Source of the DNA: Chloroflexus aurantiacus J-10-fl | GTDB taxonomy: Bacteria > Chloroflexota > Chloroflexia > Chloroflexales > Chloroflexaceae | Assembly: GCF_000018865.1 (NCBI RefSeq) | Contig: NC_010175.1 | Span: forward strand, 744,001-808,000 | DNA: 64,000 nucleotides | Direction: 5' to 3' | Shown: piece by piece, positions 47,661 to 60,318 of the stretch | Numbering within the stretch: the first letter of the stretch is position 1 | Layout: every line of letters begins with the position of its first letter | Translations under genes and position numbers: made by a program | The notes under the pieces: model-generated | What the model was told of the DNA's origin: nothing | What the model saw: the letters and a program-made list of their open reading frames with translations, nothing else | Database searches by the model: none

Positions 47661-48667
47661 AACGAGGGAACCCGGCAGTAGAGATACGCTCGTGATCGAG
47701 GAATACGATGTCGGTGTGCGGAATGATGGTAACCTCGCATCAACGCAATGAGCGCTCGCTATCATGAAAGGTATTTGCTCAGGCAGACAAATGCTTTTCT
47801 GTAGACAGTACGTTATACAAATTGTGGTTGGCTCATGTTCAAACTCGGTGCAATAGGGGACTACGCAGCCCTTACACCGCAGTAAACACCGATGGTTGAC
47901 CGTTTTGAGATGTGCGCAGTGCACTGTAGTTAAGGGGCTATTGCTATCTGCAAGCGTTAACTTGTCCGAGCTGTGGGTGTGGTATAGCTCCCCGTTGTAG
48001 CTCTTAGTTGGTTTGGCTGCACCACTTTTTTTGAACAGGAGCCATTGTGATTATATTGTTGTTGTGGTCTTGTGCAAGATTGTCGTGCTGCGAAAGGAAG
48101 AACTGGTGGGTGCCTGTCACACACAAGCCTCCACAGCATGGGGTATCTCCAAAGAATGGATCCACGTCAGGATTGGCAGTCCGGGCAGCTTGAGAGAATT
48201 GGAATACCGTGGATACGGCGTGGCAGGTAGCACATCGAAAATAGTTTCGAGCGATGCGTGCATCCAGTGTAGCGACATCCCCTATCAGCGAGTTTAGGAG
48301 CGGACAGAACTTGCAAAAGGACACGTGAGATAGGGTTTGAGGGCGAACTGAAAGCCCTCTCCACACGCTCCTCTACTGCAATAAGGGATAAGGAGCGTGT
48401 GGAGAGCAACGCTGGTGATTCCTGATAGGAACACTAGAGGCTTTACCTATGGCTTCCTGATGTGGTAGAAGACGTGTTCGATCAAATATTCTGTCCGCTC
48501 CTGAACGGTTCGGGAGATTCGGGAACCCGCGGCCTGCTTCAGGGCTTCCCCATGCGGCAAAAGCTGCGTTAGCTCATATTTTCTATCCGTCCATGAATAT
48601 AGCACAAGGATGGAGTTGACTCGACTCGCCATTGAGCATGTGCGAGTACCGGTAATCTTACGATAAT
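47661..48667. other. Gene-free spacer with one strong hairpin
   Basis: No reading frame here combines length, ribosome-binding site and a recognisable motif. The segment 48450-48560 distantly resembles module A of the 24.3-kb element (CTTCCTGATNNGGTAGA, TTCGATCA, CTGTCC). The most structured part is the 16-bp-stem hairpin at 48357-48406, listed separately. Confidence 0.5.
48357..48406. repeat. Perfect 16-bp inverted repeat
   Basis: CTCTCCACACGCTCCT (48357-48372) and AGGAGCGTGTGGAGAG (48391-48406) are exact inverted copies with an 18-base loop. There is no U-tract. It could be a transcribed hairpin, a small RNA element or a remnant of an element end. Confidence 0.7.
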
Positions 48668-48981
48668 CCAAGTTGCCACCTTACGTCACTACAGCGGTGC
48701 TGGTCGTTGAGCGCTACGGGGGAGGTGTGGAACACGGATGGACGCGGGTGAGGCGGATGAACGCGGATAGATCGTCACCCAAGGTGCCACCTTATACCAC
48801 CACAGAGACACGGCGGATAGGCATACCAGATGTGCGTGACGTAGTGCGTTTACAGAACTGGCTGCTACCCAAACGATGCATACCGGTCAGGCACGCTGCA
48901 CAATGTTGTGCGCAGCGTCGTGTTGTTCATCATAGCAGGTAGTCTTTCGTGGCCTGCTCACAGTGCAGGTGGCAACTTGGG
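48668..48981. mobile_element. MITE-like element with CCAAGTTGCCACCT ends, copy 2
   Basis: The ends CCAAGTTGCCACCT (48668-48681) and AGGTGGCAACTTGG (48967-48980) are perfect 14-base inverted repeats. An internal CCCAAGGTGCCACCT at 48779 followed by CACCACAGAGACACGG suggests one element nested in another. The right half carries GTCGTGTTGTTCATC as in the copy at 8663-8881. No coding potential. Confidence 0.65.
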
Positions 48982-49007
48982 TTGCGATACATTTATACCA
49001 GCCAGAT

Positions 49008-49535
49008 TTATCGGCCAGGCATCTGGCGCAAAATCTGCTGACGCTCTTCAGCGGTTACCAGACCAAAACTATCACCACGGTTGAGATAGACAATCTCCTC
49101 ATTCTTGATACCAACAATCAAATCTGACAGACCGTCACTATTCATATCAGCCAGACGCATCGTGATCGGTGTCAGATCCTCATTTGCACCAACCAGATAC
49201 GGACCTACGATTGTTCGGGTCTTGTTCACATCACCACCGGGAATCTCGAGAATAAGCACCTGACGGTCAAGATTCATTGCGATCAGACGGGTAGGACCGA
49301 CTGTCTCCTCGGCCCGCCCCACTTCTGCCGTGAGATGGAATGTACGTGGTCGTCCGTATCTCCAATCATCGAGTAGCGTCTGCCCCCACCCAACAAGAGC
49401 GCTCACCAATACGTACAGGGCAAGAACTGCCAGCAGACCGGTGACGATGTATGCAGAATTGCCGAGTGCCGGCCTGGGCACGGCAATCGAAGACATTCGA
49501 CGTGGTGAGCGGATTTCACGACTGGTCACTGCCAT
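49008..49535 (-). CDS. Single-pass membrane protein with an FG-GAP/VCBS-like segment
   Basis: The product of about 175 residues has one membrane helix (YIVTGLLAVLALYVLVSALVG, about residues 29-49) and an exterior domain with a calcium-type repeat motif LADMNSDGLSDLIVGIKN, as in FG-GAP repeats of beta-propellers. One repeat cannot make a propeller by itself. ATG 49535 is preferred since GGAGG lies eight bases before it. It stands alone, reading away from the gene at 49985. Function unknown. Confidence 0.7.
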   Translation of the reverse strand: MAVTSREIRSPRRMSSIAVPRPALGNSAYIVTGLLAVLALYVLVSALVGWGQTLLDDWRYGRPRTFHLTAEVGRAEETVGPTRLIAMNLDRQVLILEIPGGDVNKTRTIVGPYLVGANEDLTPITMRLADMNSDGLSDLIVGIKNEEIVYLNRGDSFGLVTAEERQQILRQMPGR

Positions 49536-49577
49536 GGCGGGCCTCCTCTGAAATACACGCTTAGAACAAAAGTTCAA

Positions 49578-50579: not shown

Positions 50580-50595
50580 CTCCGGAATGATAGGA

Positions 50596-51720
50596 TCAGG
50601 AGTTACGCAGTTCCCGACTGATGGTGTATACGTGAGGCGATAACCCGTGTCCGCGTTTGTTGCACTCGTCGCTCCGTCTCCCGTGTTCCTGGTTGATGAT
50701 GGAGGTGTGCGCTGATGAACCCACCGAAAGGTGACGAACTGGATTATATCCACGTTCTCGTCGTAGCGCAGCACGTGGTCAGCACCACAGCAGCAGCACG
50801 CTGCCATCTGGGAGATCCCACAAACGATCCGGCGCATGATGCCTAGACGCGTCTGCTGCACCGGTGTCGTTCGGATGGCACCACCTTGTGGGAAGAGGTT
50901 CGCCCTTGTGTGTCGGTGACCACGGGCTGCTCGATGATCGACGACACGACGCTGGACACGCCGTAGCGCCGGGCGATGGAGCTGGTCACGCGCCAGTGGT
51001 CGGGCAACCATCAGCGAGTCGTCGTGGGTATCAATCTGATCAGGATGCTGTGGACTGATGGGAATGCCCACCTGCCCGGTGACTTCCGTATCGACGACAA
51101 CGCACACGACGGGTTGACCAAGAACGACCACGTTCGGACGATGGTGCAGGCAGCGGCCGCACGCGGGTTTCAACCTCGCCTGCTTGCCTTCGACCGCTGG
51201 TATGCCAGCCTGGAGAACCTGAACCTGGTGCGCTCGCTGCCCTGGCAGTGGCTGACCCACCTGAACGCCAATCGCCTGGTTGATCCTGATGGGTCGGGCA
51301 ACCGACTGATCAGGGACGTACCGATTCCGTCTGTGGGCACAATCGTGCATCTAAAGAGCTATGGCTTCATCAAGGTGGTCGCGATGGCCACCCCAGACGG
51401 TGGCAGTGACGACTGGGCCACAAGCGACCTGGCGATGGGTGCTGACCAGTGGGCGGAGTACGCCCGATACCGGTGGCTGATCGAAGCGTCCCAGCGCGGT
51501 AGTACGCAGGACTGCGGCATCGAACGCGCCCAGCCCCGCGCCGCCCGTGCCCAGCGGAATCCTATCGATCTGGCGCTTCGGGCCTTCCTCCGCCTGGAAT
51601 GTCACCGGTTGCGGACAGGCACGTCATGGTTTGAGGCCAAAGCCGCCATTGTCCGTGAGGCAATACGGGCCTACCTGGCCCATCCATGCTATACCCAGCT
51701 CTCAACTACGTAACTCCTGA
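50596..51720 (+). mobile_element. 1125-bp IS4-clan (IS701-like) insertion sequence, copy 1
   Basis: Ends TCAGGAGTTACGCAGTT (left) and inverted TCAGGAGTTACGTAGTT (right) differ at one base. The total length equals that of copy 2 at 59194-60318. Outside the ends the host sequence forms an inverted pair (ATGATAG left, CTATCAT right), meaning the insertion split a palindrome that probably was the terminator of the gene at 50091. I see no direct target-site duplication. Confidence 0.8.
50715..51713 (+). pseudogene. IS701-like DDE transposase, two in-frame stops (copy 1)
   Basis: The 333-codon frame (ATG after GGAGGTG) is interrupted by TAG at codon 44 (50844-50846) and TAG at codon 84 (50964-50966). 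The first catalytic Asp region MIDDTTLD, the second LLAFDRWYASLENL and the Glu region YRWLIEASQRG remain readable, so the fold is clear although it cannot be made as a full-length protein by normal decoding. The second stop is shared with copy 2. Confidence 0.8.
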
Positions 51721-51830: not shown

Positions 51831-52201
51831 GGGCCGGATTGCGCGTGTGTCGCGCAATCCGGCCACCTTCCCATCCCGCACGCAGAAAACATCTACTCTC
51901 CGGACGTGTCGGTGTTTGCCGTCCTGTTCAACCTACCGATAGAGCCAGCACACCACACAGCGATCCTCCACAAGCAAAGCTTTCCTCAATTTCATAAGGT
52001 TGCGTGGGGCGAGGCGGCAAAGAAACGCTCCCGGAAGGCACGGACGGTTACCTGTCCCGCGTAACGCTCGCCATCTGTCGTTGGATAGGTGTTTTCAAAT
52101 ACACAGTCATCGGTCATTGCGGCTATCATGGCGTCAACATCATGCCGGTTGCTGGCATCGTTGAAGCGTTGAATCACTTCAAGCGGGGATGTCGTCAGCA
52201 T
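51831..52201 (-). pseudogene. SnoaL-like (NTF2-fold) protein, frameshifted
   Basis: The N-terminal frame (MLTTSPLEVIQRFNDASNRHDVDAMIAAMTDDCVFE, then FRERFFAASPHATL) is a normal SnoaL/ketosteroid-isomerase-like start, but stops at 51992. In another frame the expected continuation is visible: EDRCVVCWLYR, a TAG, VEQDGKHRHVRRVDVFCVRDGKV. So the gene carries at least one indel and one nonsense codon. It ends in a perfect hairpin (GGCCGGATTGCGCG and its inverse, about 51832-51863). An AGGAGGTG lies some 20 bases upstream of the ATG, too far for an ideal start, so the exact start is unsure. Confidence 0.7.
51832..51863. terminator. 14-bp stem hairpin at the end of the SnoaL-like pseudogene
   Basis: GGCCGGATTGCGCG and CGCGCAATCCGGCC are perfect inverted repeats with a four-base loop (TGTG) between them. 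There is no long U-run on either strand. Probably the terminator of the minus-strand SnoaL/cupin locus. Confidence 0.6.
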
Positions 52202-52240
52202 ATCTGCATGCATGGTGTCGGATATGGTTATTCACCTCCT

Positions 52241-52610
52241 TTATTCTTTTAGTCGCCGGACGATGTCTGCAAGTTCGATCAACACATTCAGTTCATCACC
52301 GGCAACCCAGGCGTCGAGTCCCGGCTGCATGATTGCTACATCTCCTGGACCAAATTCCATCTCGGTACCGTCATCCATGCGGATTCGTTGACGACCTGTG
52401 AGGAAGATCTTCACATGGAATCGCTGACAACTTTCCCCGCCAACGACAGGCTTGACGTTCTTCGACCATTGCCAGCCAGGTTTAAGGGTTTCGCGGTAGA
52501 ATGTCAGCCTTCCGACAGTGATCACATCAATCTTGCCGTTCTCGAGTGACCGCTGCGCCTTGTCGGGAACATCGGTTTTTGCCTATGATGTTCTCAATCT
52601 GGTTGGTCAT
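52241..52610 (-). pseudogene. Cupin-domain protein with a +1/-1 frameshift near the N-terminus
   Basis: ATG 52610 has GGAGAAGG upstream and starts MTNQIENIIGKN; the frame then breaks at a run of five A (about 52575-52581), and the next frame continues DVPDKAQRSLENGKIDVITVGRLTFYRETLKPGW, HVKIFLTGRQRIRMDDGTEMEFGPGDVAIMQPG through to 52241, a complete small cupin domain. The break lies in a homopolymer, so programmed slippage or a sequencing error are possible besides real decay. Small cupins bind a metal and often act on small ligands; the metal His set is not complete by eye. Confidence 0.7.
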
Positions 52611-52799
52611 AAGCCTTCTCCTTGCCTGATTGAGATGAGTTCTACGGCAATGGTTAGTGTTAACGAAACATGTCTAGCCAGCCCTCCGTCCTGAAATTCT
52701 CGATCAAGGCGCCGGTGAGCGTGCGAATTGCCTCTACGCTCAACGCTGCTCGCCGACAATCTTCCAGCCGGAGATCACCGTGCAATGGAACTTTCAGTA

Positions 52800-53630
52800 T
52801 CACTGATCACCAGGCTTTACTACTGGCAGCCCGGCATCGATCCATGCCTGCACACCGCCTTCGAGAATCTGCACATTGGTGAAGCCCATCTCATGGAGCA
52901 GTCCGCCGCCCAACGCGCCTAACGGCCCAAGGCCACAGGTGGTCACGATAGGTCTGGCATGGTCGGCCAGCCGGGGGTCGCGCCAGTCTTCCGGGGCTGT
53001 GTGATCAGCCGCGTAGGTCAGTGTGCCGTAAGAAAGATTGATGGCGCCGGGGATCGCACCGGTCTGGGCGACTTCTGCTGCGTCGCGCACATCAATGATG
53101 AGCAAGTCTGGCTCTCTTTTCAAGCGGCGGTGAAGATCGGCGGCTTTGATAGTTGGCACGCTGCGATAGGCTGCGTCGACCATGGCTTGAAAGGTTTTCG
53201 GCGGCGGCGGCCAGGCTGGCAGCGCACCGAGCTGTTGCAGCAGGCTCAACGCATCGACCAGTATGCGACTATCGACAAACTTGCCATCGACGACATGATC
53301 GATAGTCCAGGCCGCCACCTTGACAGCGCGATGGGTGGGAGGGATGCCCAGAAATTCGCCGCGGTGCGTGCCCGTCCAGGTCGAGCGCGCCATCACATAC
53401 TCCCCCTCGGCCACCATCTCCTCATTCACCCATACGAGATCAGGGAAGGCCTTGAAGAAAGATTCGCCAAGAAAGGCTTTGAGGCCGGCAGCTCCGGGAC
53501 CCTGACCAGGTAAGGGGTCAAGTTCAACATAATCGGGCGGGCAGATTTCATCGATCACAGCCAGATTCTTGTCATTGAGCACCTCTTTGACGAAGCGACG
53601 GATCACAGATTTTGCATCATGGGGCGACAT
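52800..53630 (-). CDS. SnoaL-like domain fused to a rhodanese domain
   Basis: The product of about 276 residues has two domains. Residues 1-135 are SnoaL-like ([72 protein letters not shown]). Residues about 155-275 are rhodanese: [37 protein letters not shown] and the active-site Cys in [23 protein letters not shown]. The active loop CGLGPLG is of the single-domain sulfurtransferase kind. AGGAGAAAG precedes ATG 53630. I do not know this fusion as a described protein; the pair could couple sulfur transfer to binding of a small hydrophobic ligand. It is the only intact gene of its decaying neighbourhood. Confidence 0.8.
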
Positions 53631-53643
53631 GGGCTTTCTCCTT

Positions 53644-53745
53644 ATGGTAGGTCTGCGCGAAGATCGCATCAATCACCTTGATCGTGCCTTTATTCCAGAC
53701 TTGAAACTCACGATTGACAAGCTCTTTGATCGGTTACGTTGACAT
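53644..53745 (-). pseudogene. Remnant of a second SnoaL-like gene
   Basis: GGAGGAATTC precedes ATG 53745, which reads MST then TAA; after the stop the same frame continues PIKELVNREFQVWNKGTIKV and then [11 protein letters not shown], the typical N-terminus of a SnoaL-like protein, and then runs into the ribosome-binding site of the SnoaL-rhodanese gene. Only the first 35 codons survive. Its good ribosome-binding site suggests it was once the first gene of the locus. Confidence 0.6.
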
Positions 53746-53881: not shown

Positions 53882-54400
53882 TCAACCCTTAACCATCAGC
53901 AACACGAACCAACCAGATACGTAGAGTGAGGAGATGATGACGCCAAGCTCGGTTGCACTGAGCCAGGGAATACGCCGCTGGAAAAAACTCTGTCGTATGG
54001 GCTTTATTTGTCGGTCAGTCGGATCAAAGTATTCGGTGGCGATCGCTCCGGTATACGTCCACGTCTTCAGTTCAGGCGGAACTTGAACAGCCCGAATCCC
54101 ATCGAATGCCGCATCTTGAGTAAGCAAGAAATGGGCATGGGCTATTTGCCGTCGGTAGACGTCCACCAGATAGTTGTCGGTCGCCGCAAATTGATTCCAA
54201 CAGATACTCATGACGATGCCCAGAATGCTGGCAAGCAACCACAGCTCTAGGGTACTCTGGGCAACGGCGATAGCAAAGAGACCGGTGTTGATTGTCAAGA
54301 AGAAGTTGAAACGGATCCACATTCGGCTTAAATGGTCTTTGAGATAGTTCACTCGTAGCTCATATTCTCGCTGCAAATAGTCTCTTGGTAAGAATGCCAT
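53882..54400 (-). CDS. Three-helix membrane protein, possibly RipA-like
   Basis: The product of about 172 residues has two adjacent membrane helices (FNFFLTINTGLFAIAVA, LWLLASILGIVMSICW), a cytoplasmic helical region (YLVDVYRRQIAHAHFLL) and a C-terminal helix (ELGVIISSLYVSGWFVLLMV). The start MAFLPRDYLQREYELRVNYLKDHLSRMWIRF is amphipathic. It resembles small RipA-type or two-helix sensor proteins, but the match is impressionistic. ATG 54400 follows AGGATTGG; the frame extends to 54457 without coding character. A second membrane-protein gene lies upstream. Confidence 0.65.
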   Translation of the reverse strand: MAFLPRDYLQREYELRVNYLKDHLSRMWIRFNFFLTINTGLFAIAVAQSTLELWLLASILGIVMSICWNQFAATDNYLVDVYRRQIAHAHFLLTQDAAFDGIRAVQVPPELKTWTYTGAIATEYFDPTDRQIKPIRQSFFQRRIPWLSATELGVIISSLYVSGWFVLLMVKG

Positions 54401-54463
54401 TTCCAATCCTTCTATGTGCAGTACTTGCACCATCCACCGGCAAGTACACGCCAGCAAAATATC

Positions 54464-54824
54464 TCACCATACTACGTAAACCCATCCATATGCATTGACG
54501 CTGCTGTAGGCTCGCCACGTAAACACGCCAATGGTAATCACCAGGACGACGGTCAACCACGATGGGAAGGATATCCACACGTGCACGCCAGGCATTGCAA
54601 TCGTGATCACAACAACTATGCAGATCAAGGCCATGCGCTTGCGGCGTAAGCGAAAGGCGTCAATCTGTCGGTCGAGGTCATGAGGCACAGGATTGCCGCC
54701 TGCCCGCACGAACAGCGCGTTAATACGCGGCTGGAGAAGCGCATGGACGTATGTCAACAGTCCAGCAATGATCAGGAGAAGCAGAAGCTTGAGTCCGAGG
54801 ATCGGGTTGATTGTCAGTCCTTCA
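54464..54824 (-). CDS. Small membrane protein, start uncertain
   Basis: The frame ending at 54464 encodes three membrane helices (LGLKLLLLLIIAGLLTYVHAL, MALICIVVVITIAMPGVHVW, SWLTVVLVITIGVFTW) with the conserved-looking loop QPRINALFVRAGGNPVPHDLDRQIDAFRLRRKRM between the first two. The open frame extends to 54982 but its first 55 residues look non-coding. A CTG or a missing N-terminus near 54824 is possible; no ATG is in the right place. The gene may therefore be truncated. It is co-directional with the gene at 53882. Confidence 0.5.
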
Positions 54825-55210
54825 TCCCCATTCCTCTCAGCAGCACTGGCACCAGTCCTGATACGAGAGCAGTGTCTTGACACATGACAAGCGAGGGGTC
54901 GATATAAGTACCTACCCGCCTGCCCAACGGCAGCCCCAATCAGATGCGTTAATTGACGGCGACGAGAGTGCAGCAGGGACACACCATCGGAATAGAAGTG
55001 AGGGTATGGATAATCTTCAGCACGCTAACAACGGTCTCTACACGCTACCCTCACTTGTTCCTGCCAACCCAGACATATGCGACCTTCTGATTGCGTACAA
55101 CGATAGCACAGACCCACTTGCCTTTTTTGCCATTTCTTGCCAAAACGGCGAGGCAACGTGGTGTAAGGTGCGCTATAATCTGCACCATCACGGTTCTTGT
55201 TCGCGAAAGG

Positions 55211-57877
55211 ATGTGTCCTGTGTCTGCAACAGATGTTGCGTTGGACACCTGCACCACGTGTGGAGAGGCGTTAAGGTTATTGCGCCGTCGCGCTCGCCTG
55301 TCGCAACGCGAACTCTCGATCGCTACCGGCTACAGCGAATCGCACATTAGCCGCATCGAAAATAACGAACGTCCTCTCGACCGTCATTCGCTGCTGGCGC
55401 TCTTTGTGCCGGCCTTACAACTCCAGGCGGAGCCGGAGACGGTGGCGCGTTGGCTAGCCCTTTGCACATCTACACCCTCGTCTCGGTCTGAGAGCGCCCG
55501 ATCAACAGAGTCCACCTTTGCTGAGTCGCCTGCGTACTCACCCACACCGGCGCTGCCGCTCCAACTTACCTCCTTTATTGGGCGTATCGAAGAGGTGTCA
55601 GAGGTGTGCACTCTCTTGCAGCGCCCAGATGTGCGCCTCCTCTCCTTCACTGGCATTGGCGGCTGTGGCAAAACCAGATTGGCGCTGCGTGTGGCGGAAA
55701 TGGTGGCACCTGGTTACGCACACGGCGTGCATTGGGTCGAGCTTGCGGCGTTGGAGCAGCCGCATGTGCTGCCACAACTTATGCTCGAACGCTGGCAATT
55801 ACGTTGCGGCGCCACCGATCATCCGCTCGATGTATTGAGCAACTTTGTGAGTAACCGGCGCATGTTGCTTGTCCTGGATAATTGCGAACACCTTATAGAA
55901 GCGGTTGCGACTCTAGTGCTGAAGTTGTTGCAGCGATGCCCGTCACTGCAGATCCTGGCAACCAGCCGCGAGATTCTGTCTGTACCGGGTGAAGTTCATT
56001 ACCACGTTCAGCCGCTGTCCCTTCCTCCAGTCTGGCGCAGCAGTTCCCCTTCCGCCACCGAGATCATGCGGTATGAAGCGATCCAACTCTTCGTAGCGCG
56101 CAGTCAGGCTGTCTTTCCCGCCTTTACTTTGACTGACACCAATGCGGCGGCAGTGGCCGCCATCTGCCAGCGGCTCGACGGTATCCCGCTCGGAATCGAA
56201 CTGGCGGCAGCGTGGATGTCCACCCTGGCGCCGCAGCAGCTTGCAGAGCATCTGCAAATGGACTTCAGCTTGCTGGTGGATCAACGTCGCAGTGTATTGC
56301 CCCGCCACCAGACGTTGCGTGCCGCCATCGAATGGAGCTATCGCCTCCTTACCGACCCCGAACGTACACTGTTGCGCTATCTGGCTGTCTTGCGCGGCAC
56401 CTGGTCGCTGGCAATCGCAGAAGCAATTGCCGGCGAAGCGGGATTTAGCGCCACCCATCAACTGTTGTACATACTTAATCGCCTGGTCAGCAAGTCGCTC
56501 ATTACGGTCGATCATCGGAACGAAGGTGAAGCGTGGTATCGACTGCTGGAGCCGCTACGCGAGTACCTTCTGACAATGCTAAGCGAGGAAGAAGAAGCCC
56601 GCATTCAGCAACATCGTCTGCGCTATTACGCGCATCTTGTAGAAACGGCGGAGGCGGGTTTATCCGGCGCTTTGCAACAATCGTGGTTGGATCGGATGGA
56701 GCGTGAACACGACAATTTACGCGCCGCCCTAAGTTGGGGCTGCGATCACGCCGGGGTACCAGCCCAACTTGCCGCGTTGCTGGCATCCCGCATCTGGCGC
56801 TTCTGGTTGGTGCGTGGCTATTATTGCGAGGGGCGCCGCTGGCTAGAGGAAATGCTCACGCGTACTGCTCCATCCGGGCAGGTGCGCATCCGCCTGTTGT
56901 ATGGCGCTGGCGTGCTCGCACGGCTCCAGCTCGATCTGGACGCTGCGGCTCGATTTGCCGGGGAGCAACTGCAACTGGCAGCAGAACTGAATGACCTGCG
57001 CGGCCTTGCCGATGGCTATGGGGTCATGGGATGGATCGAGGCGTTTCAAGGCAACCTGCAAGAGGCGACGCGATTCTTTGAGCAGCGACTGCTCATCTCC
57101 CGTCAACTCAACTATCAGCGTGGAATTGCCTATGCCTTGCGCGGCCTGGGCGAAAGCGCAACAGCACAAGCCAATTATCGAGAGGCAGGTGCTTATTTAC
57201 AGGAAGCACTGAGCATCTTTACCGAATTGGGCGACCGTCGGTACATCGCGCAAATCTGGCGGGACTTTGGCCGTCTTGCTTACCACGAAGATGATCTGGA
57301 ATCTGCCATCACAGCATTTCAGTCCAGCCTGGCAATCTATCAGGAGGTGGCTGATGCGCATAGTGTGGCCGAGTTGTTGCTCGATCTGTCTCGGCTTGCC
57401 CTTGCCAATCATGATTTGGCAGCCGCCGTTGCCCACCAGGCTGCCGCCGATCGCTTGATCGAGGACACAATCGATCGCCAACTCCGTTGCGCATCTGACC
57501 TCAATCGTGCGCGAATCGCCCTCCACCAGCAAGATGTCCCGGCGGCCAGGGAGTATCTGAAAGAGGCGCTGCAGATTCTGGCGGTGCTTCATGATCGACC
57601 CGCCATGATAACGGGTATCGAACTGTCGGCTGCCGTTGCGCTGGCTATGCAAGAGCCGGTACACGCTCTCTGCCTGTGGAGTGCAGCCAGACGTTTTCGC
57701 CAGGGAAGCGGTCTGTGGGCACCTCGCTTCGAATCTCGCTGGACGCAACAGGAGATCGATACGCTTCGTCTGCGCATGCCGCCGGACGACTTCAGCGCTT
57801 TCTGGCAAATCGGTCAGGTATGGCCGCTAGAGCAGGCTGTAACTCAGGCACACATCCTCCTGGTTGGGCGATCCTGA
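55211..57877 (+). CDS. XRE helix-turn-helix / NB-ARC ATPase / TPR regulator
   Basis: The protein of about 888 residues starts with an XRE-type DNA-binding domain ([37 protein letters not shown]), a Ser/Pro-rich linker, an NB-ARC/AP-ATPase module (FIGRIEEV, Walker [14 protein letters not shown], Walker [17 protein letters not shown]-like [15 protein letters not shown]) and a C-terminal TPR array (repeats such as [29 protein letters not shown] and [20 protein letters not shown]). This STAND architecture is common among regulators of Chloroflexota and actinobacteria and senses a ligand or protein via the TPRs. Start at 55211 (ATG after AAAGG); GTG 55220 is an alternative. No obvious target gene is adjacent. 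Confidence 0.85.
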
Positions 57878-58969: not shown

Positions 58970-59193
58970 ATCAATCTCCTTGTCTGAAGAAAATAGTCTT
59001 GTATATATAAAACCGGAATATTGGTCAAATAGTTGCACACATTTTTGGGTTGATTTTAGACGAACATATGTTTTCAATAGATTAGGCTACGGTAGATGCA
59101 TTATTAATTTGAAGCGTTAGCGCTTTTCATGCGTTCGATAGCGCAAGAATGTCTTGCTTGACCACATCGCAGGTACTTTTGGTTGGTTATCTA

Positions 59194-60318
59194 TCAGGAG
59201 TTACGCAGTTCCCGACTGATGGTGTATACGTGAGGCTACAAACCGTGTCCTCGCTTGTTGCACTCGTCGCTCCGTCTACCGTGTTCCTGGCTGATGATGG
59301 AGGTGTGCGCTGATGAACCCACCAACGTGTGACGAACTGGACTATATCCACGTTCTCGTCGCAGCGCAGCACGTGGTCAGCACGACCGAAGCAGCACGCT
59401 GCCATCCGGGAGCGCCCACAAACGGTCCGGCGCATGCTGCCTCCACGCGTCTGCTGCACCGGTGTTGTGCGGATGGCACTGCCGTGTGGGAAGCGGTTCG
59501 CCCTTGTGTGTCGGTGACCACGGGCTGCTTGATGATCGACGACACGACGCTGGACACGCCGTAGAGCCGGGCGATTGCGCTCGTCACGCGCCAGTGGTTG
59601 GGCAACCATCAGCGAGTCGTCGTGGGTATCAATCTGATCAGTATGCTGTGGACTGATGGGAACGTCCACCTGCCCTGCGACGTCCGCATCTACGACAACG
59701 CACACGACGGATTGACCAAGCACGACCACATCCGGGCGATAGTGCAGGCAGCGGCGGCACGCGGGTTTCTGCCTCGCCTGCTCGCCGTCGCTAGCTGGTA
59801 TGCCAGCCTGGAGCACCTGAACCTGGTGCGCTCGCTCCACTGGCCGTGGCTGACCCACCTGAACGCCAATCGTCTGGTTGATCCCGATGGGTCGGGTAAC
59901 CGACCGATCAGGGACGTACCGATTCCGGCTGCGGGCGCGGTCGTGCATCTGACGGGCGATGGCGTCAGCACGGTGGTCGCGCTGGCCACCCCAGCCGGTG
60001 GCAGTGACGACTGGGCCACGAGCGACCTGGCGATGGGTGCTGACCAGTGGGCGGAGTACGCCCGCTCTCGATGGCGCATCGAAGCGTACCATCGCGGTAG
60101 CACGCAGGACTGCGGCATCGAACGCGCCCAGTACCGCGCCGCTCGTGCCCAGCGGAATCATATCGGTCTGGCGCTGCGGGCCTTCCTCCGCCCGGAATGT
60201 CACCGGTTGCGGACAGGCACGTCGTGGTTTGAGGCCACAGCCGCCATTGTCCGTGAGGCGATACGAGCCTACCTGGCCCATCCACGCTCTACCCAGCTCT
60301 CAACTGCGTAATTCCTGA
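59194..60318 (+). mobile_element. 1125-bp IS4-clan (IS701-like) insertion sequence, copy 2
   Basis: The ends TCAGGAGTTACGCAGTT and inverted TCAGGAATTACGCAGTT match those of copy 1, and the length is identical, so no indel has occurred in either copy since they parted. Host bases next to the ends (ATCTA left, AAATTT right) show no clear duplication. Sequence identity to copy 1 is high by eye, with scattered substitutions. Confidence 0.8.
59313..60311 (+). pseudogene. IS701-like DDE transposase, amber codon and lost catalytic Asp (copy 2)
   Basis: The 333-codon frame is interrupted once, by TAG at codon 84 (59562-59564), the same codon as in copy 1. Codon 44, a stop in copy 1, is TCC here. The first Asp region MIDDTTLD and the Glu region SRWRIEAYHRG are kept, but where copy 1 has LLAFDRWYASL this copy reads LLAVASWYASL, losing the second catalytic Asp. 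The copy should be dead even if the amber codon were read through. Confidence 0.8.

Follow-up and report, generated by a model that had tools for sequence, protein, structure and literature searches.

Rhodaneses carry sulfur as a persulfide on a cysteine, and their fusion partners are often redox proteins or enzymes that modify tRNA or cofactors; the SnoaL and YdhR folds hold small molecules, some of them aromatic. CoADR-RHD and the NAD(H)-dependent persulfide reductase have a C-terminal rhodanese, as does the protein described here (3ict, 6pfz and 3nt6, where the fold match is to the rhodanese part), but their partner is a flavin disulfide reductase and not a SnoaL domain. The single-domain rhodaneses of PDB 2hhg and 1qxn (Wolinella polysulfide-sulfur transferase) match nearly the whole rhodanese half of our protein in sequence, including its N-terminal helix, and match it in fold as well, but carry no fused pocket domain. 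Where our loop reads GPLG, that of 2hhg has GGxRS, and so does that of 6mxv, a tandem rhodanese. The polyketide enzymes SnoaL, SnoaL2, AknH and TsrD share Pfam family and fold with the SnoaL half, for which the fold matches were 1sjw (TM 0.82) and 5x7l (0.90), by target length, and also 4lgq; these enzymes are stand-alone proteins, in contrast to the fused SnoaL domain found here, and the few genes looked at near the fusion gave no sign of a polyketide pathway. In the titles and abstract beginnings of the open-licence literature searched, neither a SnoaL-rhodanese nor a YdhR-rhodanese fusion was described.

The fusion lies in a stretch of 64,000 nucleotides from Chloroflexus aurantiacus J-10-fl, a photosynthetic bacterium of hot springs (NC_010175.1, positions 744,001 to 808,000), referred to below as the window, and the features of the locus are collected in Table 1.

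Table 1 Features of the fusion locus, in window positions
Feature	Position	Strand	Remarks
Insertion-sequence copy	50595..51720	+	DDE transposase match
SnoaL_2 pseudogene	51862..52213	-	pair partner of cupin; comparison with G125
Cupin pseudogene	52241..52612	-	2-nt loss near start against the intact G125 cupin
SnoaL-rhodanese fusion gene	52800..53630	-	276 aa; ORF, Pfam, AlphaFold2, G700 ortholog
Rhodanese domain PF00581	52836..53141	-	residues 164-265; Pfam E 1.2e-17
Codon of conserved rhodanese cysteine C232	52935..52937	-	in the rhodanese loop
Proline-rich junction	53202..53216	-	residues 139-143
SnoaL domain PF07366	53229..53606	-	residues 9-134; Pfam E 1.6e-31
Probable SnoaL N-terminal scrap	53620..53745	-	directly upstream of fusion; TAA at codon 4
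HTH / NB-ARC / TPR regulator	55211..57877	+	divergent, about 1.6 kb upstream of fusion; Pfam
Second copy of the same insertion sequence	59193..60318	+	91%, same orientation

The fusion protein and its occurrence

The fusion reads from an ATG at 53630 to a stop at 52800 without a lesion across its 276 codons, and an AAGGAG ribosome-binding site stands 7 bases 5' of the ATG. Both Pfam domains are complete and score above their curated cut-offs (109.2 bits against 28.4 for PF07366, 64.7 against 22.2 for PF00581), which bears out the pairing of an NTF2-fold SnoaL domain with a rhodanese proposed in a sequence-only reading of this DNA, and its statement that the fusion was kept intact between damaged neighbours likewise holds. 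The meeting point of the two halves coincides with the C-terminus of stand-alone SnoaL relatives and with the start (M-A-K-T-F) of most rhodanese relatives that stand alone; judged by its sequence, the fusion is two complete proteins linked by a few prolines, with neither half truncated. In the whole genome (one contig of 5,258,541 bases) the fusion gives the single PF07366 match and one of the 14 PF00581 matches at E 0.001.

An AlphaFold2 model of the protein contains two well-folded domains (mean pLDDT 95.8, pTM 0.65), with blocks of lower confidence at the linker (residues 141-150, pLDDT 73) and at residues 271-276 (81), and at this pTM the predicted placement of the domains relative to each other is uncertain. 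The input was alignment A1, of 41 rows, in which about 12 N-terminal residues are misplaced in each rhodanese row; alignment A2 was left out because, according to its summary, the rhodanese rows seemed to be aligned onto the SnoaL half. The matches returned by a fold search with the model were SnoaL-type proteins and rhodaneses.

The fusion is absent from 7 other Chloroflexus genomes, where the weak matches are to other rhodaneses. Overlapping draws took in 400 genomes from the phylum, 158 from the class, and 47 and 29 from two additional classes, and among the matches listed for them none outside its own genome covered both halves. None of 176 plasmid records covered 80% of the fusion query, a phage search gave no match to the fusion, a pattern scan of genome contigs returned two distant rhodanese halves and nothing else, and the two halves did not occur as neighbouring separate genes in any locus examined before the draw described next. 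An ordinary relative of the GGQA type is widespread by comparison, the L060 query matching 124 plasmid records, 97 of them over at least 80% and all at less than 60% identity. A further draw, of 396 genomes belonging to the same class as G125, the genome that also holds the intact cupin pair discussed below, contained 36 with a match at E 1e-22 and brought to light a full-length, intact ortholog in G700, from another Chloroflexota class than that of the window. It is 77% identical over residues 3-273, and the TGA counted in the G700 match is its terminator. The same domain pair is thereby present in a second genome, and a random joining of two neighbouring genes in one strain was rejected on the strength of this ortholog. 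The SnoaL version was found in these two genomes only, and the correspondence of their junctions (ten residues in the window, PAWPPPVKTF in G700) points to one origin.

Between the two orthologs the differences by codon position are 36/33/122 in 272 codons, and dN/dS is 0.147 overall, 0.106 for the SnoaL half and 0.200 for the rhodanese half. Both halves have been under purifying selection since the two lines parted.

At the DNA level other members of the genus gave nothing at the fusion and matches of only 38-73 bases in the regulator gene. For the window's larger ORFs beyond the last shared gene (49008-49577), no match turned up in the 40 kb of G001 or the 40 kb of G003 that surround that gene. 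Horizontal entry is the likely reason for this absence, and the fusion module was probably acquired horizontally by this Chloroflexus.

The rhodanese loop and a change of partner domain

PMC10135228 describes active rhodaneses as transferring sulfur via an essential loop cysteine. The counterpart of C232 in an alignment of the window's protein with PDB 2hhg and 6mxv is their loop cysteine, so that the cysteine called active in the sequence-only reading is the right residue, although it sits in an unusual loop. This cysteine is kept in all 14 aligned fusion proteins and in each of the 20 rhodanese-half proteins compared, the window's included. Also invariant in the 14 fusions are G235, P236, G238, G241 and G242, while position 237 varies between L (12 proteins) and M (2 proteins), and position 243 holds K in 13 proteins, the window's copy alone having G there. 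The loop is CGLGPLG in the window and CxxGP[LM]G in its fused relatives, and as aligned the odd form CxxGP[LM]GxxGG is recognisable as a signature of the fused rhodanese subfamily. The GGxRS that follows the cysteine in the nearest solved relatives is not matched by the window's rhodanese, which is no bar to PF00581 membership since loops vary among rhodaneses. The window's loop has a proline and lacks the arginine of 2hhg and 6mxv, and a loop so built may indicate another acceptor, another chemistry or lost catalysis.

The 19 stand-alone relatives first found are mostly of another type, with CxxGGQA in 16, CAGGAQA in one, CDAGPMS in L057 and CEVGYNA in L058. Scored against these, the window's rhodanese half comes lowest of 20 and departs at 8 of the 36 positions conserved in at least 90% of them; in the corresponding ranking of 34 the SnoaL half stands 22nd from the bottom, and of its 12 conserved positions 10 are kept. 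A rhodanese half in decay, as the lowest score and the 8 lost positions would suggest, was mainly rejected because the GP[LM]G loop is conserved in the fused subfamily, the change K243G being what stays of it.

The relatives that carry this loop came from the matches in the class of G125, from which 19 stretches were taken, namely those with rhodanese-half matches plus G700 and G745; a fragment at a contig end (G612:C238, rhodanese half, 78%) and SnoaL-only matches were left out. At 12 loci in 11 Chloroflexota genomes a rhodanese of the same subfamily is fused to a YdhR domain (PF08803), so that Pfam assigns the 14 fusion proteins a rhodanese in 14, YdhR in 12 and SnoaL in 2. Matched stretches of the YdhR fusions are 51-75% identical to the window's protein, with the same subfamily loop and, near several, the same kind of regulator; the difference lies in the N-terminal domain, which belongs to the YdhR mono-oxygenase-like family in these proteins and to SnoaL in the window's. 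The subfamily also has stand-alone members (L137 and L138, with L140 and L141 more distant). At L139 (8706-9998) three tandem rhodanese units of the same subfamily stand behind a hydrophobic N-terminus.

In a tree built from 38 rhodanese rows, both SnoaL fusions fall into a single clade (94/92) nested among the YdhR fusions, and not one of 200 bootstrap trees has a branch that separates the YdhR fusions from all other rows. The nesting depends on forks with values of 94/97 and 86/99, neither of them starred. Constraining the YdhR fusions to a clade of their own costs 26.3 log units with a p-AU of 0.028, a moderate value for a group that was named after the tree had been seen. The nesting of SnoaL-linked rhodaneses among YdhR-linked ones makes it probable that the partner domain was swapped, and the simplest account would be an ancestor in which YdhR preceded the rhodanese and later gave way to SnoaL. 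That the fusion and its family are real is close to certain. The window's gene is one of two SnoaL versions found in a wider rhodanese fusion family and not the lone survivor of a dead pathway; the sequence-only reading, which had the fusion kept while a pathway degraded around it, did not foresee relatives with another partner domain.

Neighbouring genes and function

The same reading had taken a broken SnoaL gene, a frameshifted cupin gene and a SnoaL remnant for traces of that pathway. The cupin frameshift is there, two nucleotides being missing relative to G125, whose intact cupin is 83% identical over 106 aa. The downstream remnant is indeed broken, yet it proves to be a near full-length SnoaL_2 gene carrying two additional bases and a TAG that the intact G125 neighbour lacks; cupin and SnoaL_2 together find their intact counterparts in G125, which belongs to another class, with a 79% match along 764 bases. 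Upstream of the fusion an early stop is present, and the identification as SnoaL comes from position and from a weak similarity, with phmmer giving an E of 0.0032 at best in a comparison with ORFs of the loci analysed and the stretch 53745-53620 having no Pfam match. Over the frames read, dN/dS against G125 is 0.11 for the cupin and 0.20 for SnoaL_2, so that their divergence still shows the imprint of selection and the damage is recent.

Neither fusion half was matched within 19 kb around the intact G125 pair, whose upstream gene we take to encode a PLP-dependent decarboxylase. A search of the 18 loci that hold relatives of the fusion gave no match for the G125 cupin and, for the G125 SnoaL_2, weak ones to the SnoaL genes of G700 only. 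The pair is therefore not linked to the fusion elsewhere and is no evidence for the fusion's pathway. G700 supplies an intact version of the locus, with the fusion flanked by two SnoaL genes and a UbiE-like methyltransferase after the second. As G700 too places a SnoaL gene upstream, the scrap in the window fits what would be an eroded array, and to that extent the degraded pathway can stand, while membership of the cupin and SnoaL_2 in it is unsupported.

Across the family certain genes recur beside the rhodanese. Three queries, the regulator of the window, an L135 methyltransferase and an L137 sulfurtransferase, were run at E 1e-15 against the 18 related loci (212.6 kb, several of them cut by contig ends). 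Counting the loci that had yielded the last two queries, the regulator was found in 8, the UbiE-like methyltransferase in 6 and the second sulfurtransferase in 3. The 21 control loci (343 kb) gave no match to the regulator or the methyltransferase and one to the sulfurtransferase, a partial match at L086, a stand-alone rhodanese locus; the contrast is indicative, since most of the controls belong to other classes and some are loci of rhodaneses only distantly related. The second sulfurtransferase lies 17-44 bp from the rhodanese gene in its 3 loci. Regulator matches lie at 0.3-5 kb, and at least two of the 8 differ in make-up (in L131 BTAD replaces the HTH match); the closest relatives of the window's regulator in the set, L125 (47% over 602 aa) and L128 (58% over 277 aa), are both near YdhR fusions. 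The methyltransferase and sulfurtransferase queries had no match in the 64 kb window, and likewise none in 12 and 15 of the 18 related loci respectively. In G626 (L137, 7157-9316) a UbiE-like methyltransferase, a stand-alone rhodanese of the subfamily and a two-domain sulfurtransferase lie on one strand within about 2.2 kb as an apparent operon.

Our leading but tentative reading is that the fusion is a two-domain enzyme, a putative regulated module for sulfur transfer to a small molecule. The C-terminal rhodanese would carry sulfur as a persulfide on C232, and the small-molecule acceptor would be bound by the pocket domain at the N-terminus, which is SnoaL here and YdhR in the majority of fused relatives, with the HTH/NB-ARC/TPR regulator presumably switching the module on. 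In some relatives a second sulfurtransferase could plausibly load the sulfur onto the cysteine, and in some a UbiE-like methyltransferase may cap the product. This mechanism of transfer to a small molecule is offered with slightly more reserve than the reading as a whole. Extended to a class of ligand-directed sulfurtransferases in the Chloroflexota, with the CxxGP[LM]GxxGG rhodanese, an exchangeable YdhR or SnoaL pocket, a dedicated donor, a methyltransferase capping the new thiol and a compound-sensing regulator of STAND type, it becomes unlikely in so complete a form.

It is also possible, though we find it doubtful, that the rhodanese half handles reactive sulfur or cyanide by itself, the SnoaL or YdhR domain serving only to dimerise or to sense a ligand with no shared reaction. 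The stand-alone members L137 and L138 imply that no fused pocket is needed for the rhodanese to work, a scaffold would tolerate two unrelated partner folds, and the pTM of the model indicates no fixed domain interface; SnoaL and YdhR are, however, small-molecule enzyme folds, as their Pfam names say, and not arbitrary dimerisers, and in the SnoaL version both halves are under purifying selection. An improbable alternative is that the rhodanese has lost sulfur transfer and become a binding or regulatory domain, leaving the SnoaL half as the only enzyme: the arginine-free, proline-bearing CxxGPLG loop and the lowest score among the 20 against the profiles of the stand-alone relatives first found would agree with it, but C232 is invariant in every fusion and 3 of 18 relatives have the second sulfurtransferase gene almost adjoining. 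Very improbable is a relic that has no present function in this strain and would be the next to break after its neighbours, for despite the damaged genes and the insertion sequences that lie to either side, the K243G of this copy alone and the low dN/dS of the broken cupin and SnoaL_2, which keeps the fusion's own dN/dS from excluding a recent loss of use, the reading frame and ribosome-binding site are intact and divergence from G700 is constrained.

The family is of interest in two respects. One rhodanese subfamily with two unrelated small-molecule pocket domains and a partly common kind of regulator renders substrate-directed sulfur transfer directly testable, and the family is a probable case of partner exchange between gene fusions. 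If the family does consist of ligand-directed sulfurtransferases, exchange of the pocket domain would change the substrate and keep the chemistry.

Mobile elements and other features of the locus

Just after the fusion lies an open frame of 48 aa (52806-52663), which drew no match from Pfam or from any of 399 other genomes. A membrane protein of the 8xMP family (53882-54403; PF24838, E 6.4e-14) and an unassigned frame of 172 aa (54464-54982) separate the fusion from the regulator. Predictions of control sites were uninformative, with no terminators and with 2 promoter-like sites against 1.0 expected.

The two insertion-sequence copies bracket the fusion and the regulator, a possible composite-transposon-like arrangement, and three further copies are present elsewhere in the genome at 86-90%. 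A stretch of about 330 bp at 48659-48989 recurs whole or in part, with some 43 further matches in the same genome at up to 91% identity, and is a dispersed repeat of a perhaps MITE-like kind.
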